From positions 1 through 64,000 of the forward strand of contig NZ_JAJNAL010000011.1 in NCBI RefSeq assembly GCF_022271405.1: a DNA stretch of 64,000 nucleotides, written 5' to 3'. Positions within the stretch are counted from its first letter, which is position 1. Every line of letters begins with the position of its first letter. Positions 29,659 through 33,658 of the stretch are shown piece after piece. The stretch comes from Rhodopseudomonas infernalis (GTDB lineage: Bacteria; Pseudomonadota; Alphaproteobacteria; Rhizobiales; Xanthobacteraceae). A model generated the notes under the pieces. That model was not told where the DNA came from, did no database searches, and saw nothing but the letters and a program-made list of their open reading frames with translations. Made by a program: the position numbers and the translations under genes.

Positions 29659-30303
29659 TCATGAAAGTTTCGAAAATGCCGTGAAGGCGTGCGGCCATAC
29701 TTCGAGCGCGCCGCGATAGATCATGTCGCCGGCGACATAGAGAATGATGGCGAGGCCCACATAGGCGATCCAGCGATGCTTCTGCAGCAGCTTCGCGATG
29801 AAGCTGGCGGCGAGTCCCATCAGCGCGATCGACAGGCCAAGGCCGAACACCAGGATGATCGGATGCTCGCGCGCGGCGCCGGCGACGGCCAGCACGTTGT
29901 CGAGCGACATCGAGACGTCGGCGAGGGTGATCTGCCACACCGCCTGACCCAGCGTCTTGCTCGGCGCCGCGGCGGTGCCGGCCTCGATGTCTTCTTCGCT
30001 CGGATGCTCGGTGCGCAACTCGCGCCACATCTTCCAGCACACCCACAGCAGCAGCACGCCGCCGGCGAGCAGCAGGCCGAGGATCTGCAGCAGTTGCACG
30101 GTGACGCTGGCGAAGGCGATGCGCAGCACGGTGGCGGCGATGATGCCGATCAGGATCGCCTTGCCGCGCTGCTCCTTCGGCAGGCCGGCAGCGGCGAGGC
30201 CGATGACGACGGCATTGTCGCCGGCGAGCACCAGGTCGATCATGATGACCTGAGCCAGCGCGGTCAGACCTTCGGGCGTAAAGACGGCGAGCAATTCGTT
30301 CAT
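29659..30303 (-). CDS. TerC-family integral membrane protein (YjbE-like), candidate Mn2+ exporter
   Basis: This 214-residue inner-membrane protein has about seven hydrophobic segments and the TerC signatures VIMIDLVLAGDNAVVIGLAA (about 18-37) and ITLADVSMSLDNVLAVAGAA (about 118-137), whose acidic residues line the likely metal path. Several TerC proteins (Alx, MeeY and relatives) export manganese or help metallate exported proteins, so a metal-handling role is the best inference. The start ATG 30301-30303 is preceded by AGAGAGG, which lies inside the 3' arm of a predicted leader pseudoknot. It lies downstream of a small membrane protein gene on the same strand. Confidence 0.9.
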   Translation of the reverse strand: MNELLAVFTPEGLTALAQVIMIDLVLAGDNAVVIGLAAAGLPKEQRGKAILIGIIAATVLRIAFASVTVQLLQILGLLLAGGVLLLWVCWKMWRELRTEHPSEEDIEAGTAAAPSKTLGQAVWQITLADVSMSLDNVLAVAGAAREHPIILVFGLGLSIALMGLAASFIAKLLQKHRWIAYVGLAIILYVAGDMIYRGALEVWPHAFTAFSKLS

Positions 30304-30304
30304 C

Positions 30305-30381
30305 GGGGCCTCTCTGTTTGAACGTCCAGTCCGACATCACAGTTCGTGAGAACTGCCAGAGGGGCCCGGTCCTTGGACGTT
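30305..30381 (-). promoter_or_regulatory. Structured leader (predicted H-type pseudoknot) of the TerC gene
   Basis: Read on the minus strand the order is A, B, hairpin C, A', B', ATG. A (AACGTCCA, 30381-30374) pairs perfectly with A' (TGGACGTT, 30328-30321). B (GGGCCCCTCTG, 30367-30357) pairs with B' (CAGAGAGGCCC, 30316-30306) at 10 of 11 positions. C is a 6-bp hairpin, CAGTTC/GAACTG (30355-30340). The order A-B-A'-B' makes a pseudoknot, and B' contains the ribosome-binding site. This layout suits a translational riboswitch; I recall a published terC RNA motif in alphaproteobacteria that it may belong to, and it does not resemble the yybP-ykoY aptamer. Confidence 0.65.
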
Positions 30382-30418
30382 ATCAATGCGGGACGCCGGC
30401 GGCGCCCCGGGGACTAAC

Positions 30419-30715
30419 TCACTCAGACCCGCCGGATGGCGCCACCAGGCGCACCAGCTGGTCGGGATCGATCAGAATCGAAACGGCGACACCTGCACAG
30501 ACCAGCAACCCGGCCGCGTCGAGCCACGGGAAGCCATTGCGGCGTCCGTATAGCGCAAGACCGGCGATGGCGATGACGGCGGCGACCGCGAACAGCACGG
30601 TCACCACGGCAGGTGTCAGGGCTTCCGGGGCGACCTGCGTCCGCAGGGCGAGCGTGAGGCCGAGCAGGGCCGCGAGGGCGCCGACGACAGCAAGCTTCAC
30701 CTGATCTGCAGACAT
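30419..30715 (-). CDS. Small membrane protein with three hydrophobic segments
   Basis: This 98-residue protein has hydrophobic stretches at about 6-24 (KLAVVGALAALLGLTLAL), 34-54 (AVVTVLFAVAAVIAIAGLAL) and 65-82 (AAGLLVCAGVAVSILI). GAGGAA stands four bases before ATG 30713-30715. I do not recognise a family. It lies upstream of the TerC gene on the same strand, 115 bp from it, so the TerC leader could be transcribed from here. Confidence 0.65.
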   Translation of the reverse strand: MSADQVKLAVVGALAALLGLTLALRTQVAPEALTPAVVTVLFAVAAVIAIAGLALYGRRNGFPWLDAAGLLVCAGVAVSILIDPDQLVRLVAPSGGSE

Positions 30716-30919
30716 GTCTTCCTCAAAGCCGTGCGGGGAGTCGTAGTGGCCGCGCCGACTGCGTTCAAGCGACGCAGGGCGCGCCGCCTTGTCGCAGGGG
30801 GAATCCGAGGGTGCGAGCATCGCGCCGCATGGAACTGCGCCTTGAAACAGCCGCTTGCGGAGGCCACGTTGTCGCGGGTAGCGTTTTGCAAAGCAATTGA
30901 AGCCTCGACGAAAGTTTCC

Positions 30920-33025: not shown

Positions 33026-33250
33026 ATGAAAATCGAGATCAAGAAGATTGGAAATTCCGACGGCTTGTTGCTGCCGAAGGAGCTGATGCAGCGGCTCGAC
33101 CTCAAGCGTGGGCAGGAGCTGCACATCACCGAACTTCCCGGCGGTGGCTTTCAGGCGATGCCCTACGATCCGGACTTCGAACGGTCGATGGAGATCGCCG
33201 ACGAGGTGATGGACAAATACAAGGACACGCTCGCCGCTCTGGCGAAATGA
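33026..33250 (+). CDS. AbrB/MazE-type antitoxin
   Basis: This 74-residue protein has a SpoVT/AbrB swapped-hairpin DNA-binding domain at the N-terminus: KIEIKKIGNSDGLLLPKELMQRLDLKRGQELHI is spread over residues 2-35 with the telltale IGNS-x-G-LPKE pattern. The acidic C-terminal helix (about 45-74, FERSMEIADEVMDKYKDTLA) would bind and block the toxin. It lies 12 bp before the doc gene. Most doc partners are Phd-type, so an AbrB-type partner is a recognised but less common combination. Confidence 0.9.
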   Translation: MKIEIKKIGNSDGLLLPKELMQRLDLKRGQELHITELPGGGFQAMPYDPDFERSMEIADEVMDKYKDTLAALAK

Positions 33251-33262
33251 CGGGGGCTGTCG

Positions 33263-33658
33263 ATGAGCGAGCCATCCGAGCCGCTCTGGATCACTTACGA
33301 GCAGGCGATCGCGATGCATGCCCGGCAGTTGCGCCGCTTTGGCGGCGCGGCCGGCTTGCGCGATGAGGGAATGCTGCGGTCGGCGCTCGAGCGTCCGATC
33401 AACAAATGGCGCTATGAGCAGGCCGAATCGCCGGAGCTGGCCGCCGCCTATGCGTTCGGGCTGGCGCGCAACCACGCCTTTGTCGACGGCAACAAGCGGA
33501 TCGCCTTCATGGCGATGATGGTTTTCCTGCACAAGAACGGCGTCGCCTTCGCGCCGGACCCGGCTCATGCGACCTCCATCATCCTCTCCCTCGCCGCCGG
33601 CGAAGTCAGCGAGCAATCGCTGACGCAGTGGATCAGGGATAACTGGCCGGCTGCTTGA
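33263..33658 (+). CDS. doc: Doc-type toxin (Fic fold)
   Basis: This 131-residue protein is a death-on-curing toxin. The motif HAFVDGNKR lies at 71-79; the Lys in place of the second Gly of Fic enzymes marks Doc, which phosphorylates elongation factor EF-Tu and stops translation. The N-terminal WITYEQAIAMHARQLRRFGG and RDEGMLRSALERP are also typical. The start ATG 33263 follows GGGGCTGTCG. All catalytic residues are present, so it should be active when free of antitoxin. Confidence 0.92.
   Translation: MSEPSEPLWITYEQAIAMHARQLRRFGGAAGLRDEGMLRSALERPINKWRYEQAESPELAAAYAFGLARNHAFVDGNKRIAFMAMMVFLHKNGVAFAPDPAHATSIILSLAAGEVSEQSLTQWIRDNWPAA

Follow-up and report, generated by a model that had tools for sequence, protein, structure and literature searches.

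A terC RNA leader with a recurrent 3' strand complementary to its linker precedes a TerC-family gene in Rhodopseudomonas infernalis, and its sister RNAs precede a wider set of genes

The terC RNA (Rfam RF03067) is a catalogued family of small RNAs found before TerC genes, whose discovery paper is reportedly that of Weinberg et al. from 2017, and no published ligand for it was found in the openly licensed literature searched. Like the terC RNA, the yybP-ykoY RNA (RF00080) sits before TerC/Alx-type genes, but the two differ in size, with a model of 177 positions as compared to 59 for the terC RNA. The pH-responsive element of E. coli alx differs in working by transcriptional pausing. Pseudoknot riboswitches of the SAM-II and preQ1 type have four strands in the order A-B-A'-B', with the ribosome-binding site placed in B'. 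Cation-responsive RNAs are also present ahead of antiporter genes, as in the case of the Li+ (nhaA) riboswitch and the Na+-I (DUF1646) riboswitch (PMC9337991).

The leader described here lies on the minus strand, at positions 30305-30381, of the window, i.e. the whole stretch of 64,000 nucleotides of the R. infernalis contig NZ_JAJNAL010000011.1 that was analysed. When this window was scanned against all Rfam, RF03067 was the only family above its cut-off, with a match that covers the full length of the model (E 2.7e-06, and 5.5e-08 when the genome was searched with RF03067 alone) and ends 18 nt before the start of the TerC gene. Membership in a terC RNA motif, which the original prediction had raised as a possibility, is thus confirmed by the covariance model (Table 1). 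The complete set of terC RNA elements, comprising P1, a near-invariant linker, the P2 hairpin and the GAUG junction, is present, and hence the leader is a genuine terC RNA at the expected place. It departs from the catalogued family in that an internal loop of four by two bases leads to a longer outer stem in this lineage, and in that the relatives precede a gene set wider than TerC. As no other Rfam family reaches its cut-off in the window, the leader is distinct from the Na+-I and Li+ riboswitches, and its likeness to SAM-II and preQ1-type riboswitches is one of form only. Membership in yybP-ykoY was rejected, as RF00080 matched nothing in 30250-30700 even with E values of up to 1 allowed. 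A search of 30280-30900 for promoter and terminator patterns, including a sigma-70-like promoter, returned none.

Direct reading of the minus strand established the A-B-A'-B' order with a hairpin between B and A', the pairing of A with A' over 8 of 8 bases and of B with B' over 10 of 11, and the location of AGAGAGG within B' just 5' of the ATG (30303-30301), all as had been predicted, with CG between B' and AUG.

Table 1. Positions of the terC RNA elements and of the downstream gene in the window
Feature	Position	Strand	Basis
terC RNA, RF03067, full-length match	30322..30377	-	52.9 bits, cut-off 39.9
A strand AACGUCCA, 8/8 pairs with A'	30374..30381	-	read directly, pairs listed; lineage comparison
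Inner P1 5' strand CCGG, partner 30331-30334	30366..30369	-	Rfam structure line; in A1, pairing in 96.6% of the cells of P1 as a whole
B strand GGGCCCCUCUG, near-invariant linker, can pair with B'	30357..30367	-	conserved A1 columns; pairing tests
P2 hairpin 5' strand GCAGUUC	30350..30356	-	6/7 pairs changed on both sides in A1
P2 hairpin 3' strand GAACUGU	30339..30345	-	A1 pair changes
GAUG junction and inner P1 3' strand UCGG, near-invariant	30331..30338	-	Rfam alignment; A1 conservation
A' strand UGGACGUU	30321..30328	-	read directly; GACGUU alternatively pairs with GAUGUC
B' strand CAGAGAGGCCC, holds ribosome-binding site AGAGAGG (30309-30315)	30306..30316	-	beyond Rfam model end
TerC-family gene, YjbE type, 214 aa	29659..30303	-	PF03741 158.4 bits; TIGR03717 (YjbE family) 229.1 bits, cut-off 134.8

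In the Rfam structure, P1 consists of the inner helix CCGG/UCGG (30369-30366 with 30334-30331) and three positions outward of it. A/A' is the outward continuation of P1, separated by the internal loop AGGA/AC, and B shares two bases (30366-30367) with inner P1. For comparison, 327 leaders were collected, 247 from Rfam searches, with the window leader among them, and 80 among the listed pattern matches; 325 had enough flank and 273 were left after dereplication. Among these, the set A1 comprises 59 dereplicated window-like leaders picked solely by an A'-like start (ACTG, ATTGG or ACAGG), with B' disregarded. Counted outward from the inner helix, positions 2 to 5 form pairs in 93, 85, 74 and 59% of the 273 leaders, which corresponds to z values of 18, 12, 11 and 7, respectively, against re-dealt partners. 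The first outside position carries a free base opposite a usual A (at least 232 of 273) and is paired in 42% (z 1.0), and beyond position 5 no pairing signal is found in the whole set. In A1, 88.2% of structure cells are paired and sliding of the partner lowers pairing to 28-43%, while 79 cells are changed on both sides as compared to 20.6 in shuffles, with none of 500 shuffles as high. Six of the seven A1 pairs with double changes fall in P2, and as a count of pairs these seven, out of 22, do not exceed the shuffles (6.0; 176 of 500 reach 7). These pairing and double-change statistics lend good support to P2 and to the core of P1 as RNA structure. The predicted A/A' helix is upheld in so far as the core of P1 covaries, whereas its longer form of eight pairs is traced by eye and with RNAduplex within the window lineage, where the outer stem is longer and relatives such as L290 and L325 keep seven to eight pairs with some bases differing. 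Linker B and the GAUG junction are near-invariant in A1 and P2 is free to vary.

The original prediction had also called for compensatory changes in related leaders, and these were found in P2 and in four P1 pairs outside the inner helix but not in B/B', where none of seven pairs shows one in A1. B is almost invariant among relatives and covariation of B/B' is therefore hardly to be expected. The Rfam model stops before B', and the recurrence of this strand was examined by searching each of the 273 leaders for a nine-base partner of GGGCCCCUC within 70 nt downstream, allowing at most one mismatch and two G-U pairs. Such a partner was found in 72 leaders, whereas 20 shuffled sets averaged 24 and reached 35 at most, and controls placed upstream and further downstream gave 12 each; mismatch-free partners occur in 13 leaders (shuffled mean 1.5, maximum 3). 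With 100 letter permutations of B a mean of 28 partners was obtained, and since one permutation reached 61, part of the signal must be non-specific. Duplex energies of B/B' gave a similar picture, in that the 59 window-like leaders average -14.5 kcal/mol against -10.1 for shuffles and ten Pseudomonas-like leaders -18.8 against -11.4, with a small excess in the 162 other leaders (-12.7 against -11.2) and no excess in the 42 dereplicated leaders of the ACCGCAUCG class (-12.0 against -12.0). The energy excess holds against both shuffles and permuted linkers.

At the place of B', the majority consensus of the 59 A1 leaders is GGAGUGGCCC, and for six of seven B/B' column pairs between 45 and 51 of these leaders show pairing. 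At the remaining column pair, where the partner faces a C that never varies (column 22), only four of the 59 do, with U in 30, C in 18, A in 7 and G in 4, so that recurrent partners mostly carry a central mismatch, which is C.U in most close partners and C.A in the window. Among 15 YjbE-type leaders of the same genus, nine read GAGAGGCCC and six GGAGCGCCCG (B' kept partly). Several window-like relatives keep B' even though the next gene is predicted to begin about 100-270 nt beyond it, and hence B' is not merely a mask for the ribosome site. Most of the 42 leaders of the ACCGCAUCG class continue into a hairpin GCAUCGRG...CYCGRUGY, which overlaps with its 5' arm the 3' strand of P1, suggesting that the same aptamer is coupled there to another output module. 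B' represents a 3' strand absent from the Rfam model of an orphan riboswitch candidate. What is added here to a known family is this recurrent strand and the wider gene set, neither of which was found described in the openly licensed literature searched; the strand may already be known from the published drawing of the terC RNA. In L290 and L325, an ATG just 3' of B' opens a frame of six codons (MKPSTA* and MQPSSA*, respectively), about 100-140 nt ahead of the predicted TerC start, and this frame could be a leader peptide.

The fold of the window leader is more stable than that of shuffled sequences (z-score -3.2; one of 200 shuffles folds as well). In the minimum-energy nested fold (-34.2 kcal/mol), the B/B' helix encloses the hairpin and GAUGUC serves as the partner of A', with the program restricted to nested structures, such that the pseudoknot cannot form in the model. 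The ribosome-binding site is predicted to be 14% unpaired in the free ensemble and 94% unpaired when P1, A/A' and P2 are forced. As the forced fold reaches only -21.2 kcal/mol, a ligand or co-transcriptional folding would be needed to attain it. In the reading we favour, the terC RNA would be a small cis-regulatory aptamer built of P1, linker, P2 and GAUG junction, which governs translation of the TerC gene. In the ground state B/B' would mask the ribosome-binding site, and a signal that stabilises the P1-P2 fold would allow P1 to reclaim A' and two bases of B, freeing the site and constituting an ON switch. Alternatively, the same elements may act as an OFF switch, in which the signal leads to a pseudoknot and the site is thereby closed. 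The ON switch is preferred over the closing pseudoknot, because the site is predicted to be hidden in the free fold and exposed once P1 forms. Of the pseudoknot riboswitch form originally predicted, the order of elements, the site within B' and, in the window-like and Pseudomonas-like classes, a complementarity of B' beyond chance stand, but compensatory change in B/B' does not. The signal to the ON switch would most likely be alkaline pH or a disturbed proton/cation balance, and to the reading as a whole, aptamer control of TerC translation through the B/B' mask with such a signal, we assign a probability of about 0.6.

With E up to 0.001 and strict filters, own genome included, 74 of 150 relatives have an RF03067 match, as do 52 among 385 genomes from the class and 64 among 398 from the phylum, and one of 14 named control genomes, that of Caulobacter vibrioides, has a match. 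A pattern scan yielded at least 119 stretches with the terC RNA pattern, and among the matches listed nearly all belong, by record titles, to Alphaproteobacteria or Pseudomonas-like Gammaproteobacteria. RF00080 is above its cut-off in two of the 150 relatives, with a weaker match in five more, and gives no match at E up to 0.001 in the genome of R. infernalis itself. This genome holds three TerC genes, and the stretches around the other two lack any Rfam match at E up to 1. The pattern was also observed before a DUF475 gene in a record titled Bacillus subtilis SK6B4 (L353), whose assembly is probably contaminated or wrongly labelled. At L042/L166, L051/L195 and L167, two terC RNAs lie on opposite strands at a distance of about 115-130 bp, with TerC following one of them and DUF4112 the other, and pattern matches in tandem on one strand, about 270-310 nt apart, were observed at L370 and L346.

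Downstream genes were named by phmmer against representatives checked in Pfam/NCBIfam, with gene starts taken from predicted frames and several singletons left unnamed; shadow frames are possible in this census, as for CitMHS in L026. In the sample of 247 leaders from Rfam searches (sample A), TerC is the first gene in 165 and stands in an apparent operon behind a preceding gene in 20, together 185 or about three quarters, with DUF475 of the TerC superfamily in 6 and other or unassigned genes in 56. The pattern sample (120 leaders among the matches listed, from 119 stretches) comprises TerC in 64, 12 of these behind a preceding gene, DUF475 in 13, other genes in 33, and 10 too short or unassigned. 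Genes named in the census include, by Pfam/NCBIfam check of the representative, a calcium/sodium antiporter (L089), NhaA (L032, and L275 behind a DUF465 gene), the Mrp subunits E, F and G in Tateyamaria (L294), beta and alpha carbonic anhydrases (L184 and L236, respectively) and a zinc-ribbon protein with HtpX behind (L061). Further cases are the F1-ATPase inhibitor zeta (L158; Pfam only) and a cation P-type ATPase (L141), whose frame is cut by the end of the stretch and which is nearest to the PMR1 type, below the cut-off of that model. Bax-inhibitor family, Tim44-like, TerB, DUF533, DUF4112 and DUF465 proteins, as well as CitMHS, a YegS-type lipid kinase and YdjM, were also named, while a 74-aa frame matching FtsH in L332 is a fragment only. 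A family of small proteins of about 100-135 aa was further observed after terC RNAs at L131, L140, L142, L161, L280, L287 and L363, in Rhizobium, Roseomonas and Microvirga among others, and those of L131 and L287 have no Pfam match.

As a control, genes matched at a threshold of 40 bits were counted around all 327 leaders in 1300 nt downstream on the same strand and in 1300 nt upstream on both strands. This control leans toward the downstream side, since its representatives were drawn from downstream genes, and gave downstream/upstream counts of 14/0 for DUF475, 14/0 for zinc-ribbon, 15/1 for lipid kinase, 12/3 for DUF4112, 5/0 for cation ATPase, 4/0 each for Bax-inhibitor and zeta, 6/2 for Na/Ca exchanger, 3/1 for CitMHS, 2/0 for carbonic anhydrases, and 1/13 for LysR. 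Several families stand out in these counts; NhaA (2/1) and Tim44-like (8/7) are not enriched, and therefore neither supports the reading of the signal.

A search of plasmids with the window leader matched 35 records. Ten of these were inspected, and in the eight that came with a gene table the leader is followed by TerC five times and by DUF465, DUF4112 and an amidoligase gene once each. The DUF4112 case is the mobilizable plasmid pMPPM01 of Methylorubrum populi P-1M (L378, NZ_AP014810.1 40000-58000), on which five terC RNAs above the Rfam cut-off are distributed over about 10 kb. They precede a hypothetical gene by 37 nt, ftsH by 28 nt, DUF4112 by 98 nt, the gene for cytochrome ubiquinol oxidase subunit I (cytochrome bd) by 48 nt and, as the weakest assignment, the ATPase inhibitor zeta gene by 278 nt. 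After DUF4112, 527 nt on and on the same strand, follow nhaA and a calcium/sodium antiporter gene. Comparable clusters on Microvirga plasmids comprise cydAB, TerC, DUF4112, ftsH and Bax-inhibitor (L379) and DUF4112, ftsH, DedA and Tim44 (L380). The five-copy Methylorubrum plasmid offers a natural test system for the terC RNA. With the leader of the NhaA locus L032 as query, 17 plasmid records were retrieved, none covering 80% of it.

Mrp, carbonic anhydrases, the ATPase inhibitor, FtsH, cytochrome bd and TerC/Alx have in common a relation to the proton gradient and alkaline stress, and apart from TerC/Alx these lie outside metal export. The reading of the signal as alkaline pH or proton/cation imbalance derives from the exchanger, Mrp, carbonic anhydrase, FtsH and cytochrome bd genes that stand behind sister RNAs; gene context of this kind suggests such a stress, each non-TerC type behind it (Mrp, carbonic anhydrases, ATPase inhibitor, FtsH, cytochrome bd) being represented by a handful of loci or fewer. 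Metal sensing, which the original prediction considered plausible alongside pH sensing, is possible, but the genes that follow other terC RNAs speak no less for pH and proton/cation balance, shifting the guess for the signal in that direction. TerC, calcium/sodium antiporters and cation ATPases are by themselves compatible with a Mn2+ or Ca2+ signal, and since about three quarters of downstream genes are TerC, a metal signal fits as well. Sensing of Mn2+ or another divalent metal, with the terC RNA as the alphaproteobacterial counterpart of yybP-ykoY and pH effects being indirect, is accordingly a serious if rather improbable alternative: TerC predominates among the targets, which also include calcium/sodium antiporter and cation P-type ATPase genes, and among the 150 relatives RF00080 is rare where the terC RNA is frequent, but the genes for Mrp, carbonic anhydrases, the F1-ATPase inhibitor, FtsH and cytochrome bd do not serve metal export, and the two further TerC genes of the genome lack an Rfam-recognised leader. 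Reporters of the E. coli alx and mntP riboswitches, which belong to yybP-ykoY and hence to another family, respond to Mn2+ and alkaline pH together (PMC9603457), which favours the metal alternative and also means that the two signals are maybe inseparable by gene context. A tentative extension of the proton reading, about on a par with metal sensing in our estimate, is that of a riboswitch for alkaline pH or the proton gradient that runs a regulon of TerC, Mrp, occasionally NhaA, Ca/Na exchangers, carbonic anhydrases, ATPase inhibitor, FtsH/HtpX/Bax-inhibitor and cytochrome bd, including the five-copy plasmid island. As a speculation, protons might be sensed through the central B/B' mismatch, since a C.A pair can be protonated.

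The near-invariance of linker and GAUG junction next to a freely varying P2 is the pattern of a ligand pocket, and could reflect binding of a small metabolite or alarmone arising from membrane or proton-gradient stress; this seems unlikely, as no gene for synthesis or import of a single metabolite is prominent among the nameable downstream genes. That the leader is the binding site of a regulatory protein and not a ligand-sensing RNA is less probable still, for although a small RNA with a near-invariant single-stranded stretch would suit such a site, its spread over Alphaproteobacteria and Pseudomonas-like bacteria demands an equally widespread partner. A different doubt concerns B/B' in the window, which might be nothing but the complementarity that C-rich stretches usually show to ribosome-binding sites, with control exerted otherwise, e.g. 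by premature termination. The absence of covariation, the lack of excess in the ACCGCAUCG class and its small size in the 162 other leaders, and the permuted B that nearly equals B itself agree with this; however, the partner reaches beyond the purine-rich site (GGCCC), it is the majority consensus in 59 dereplicated leaders chosen regardless of B', and its energy excess persists against shuffles and permuted linkers, which makes chance likeness doubtful, though somewhat less so than a metabolite.

Two further features of the window were observed. On the minus strand, an ORF for a small membrane-protein-like product (30419-30820) terminates roughly 40 nt before strand A begins, and as it lies on the same strand as the leader, read-through into the leader is possible. 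Homology of this ORF with the small ORF downstream of the terC RNA at L023 was considered and is unsupported (E 21), and neither of them has a match in Pfam. On the plus strand, a MazE-type antitoxin gene (33026-33247; PF04014, 24.9 bits, barely above cut-off) adjoins a Fic/Doc gene (33263-33655; PF02661), and the two likely constitute a Doc-type toxin-antitoxin pair.
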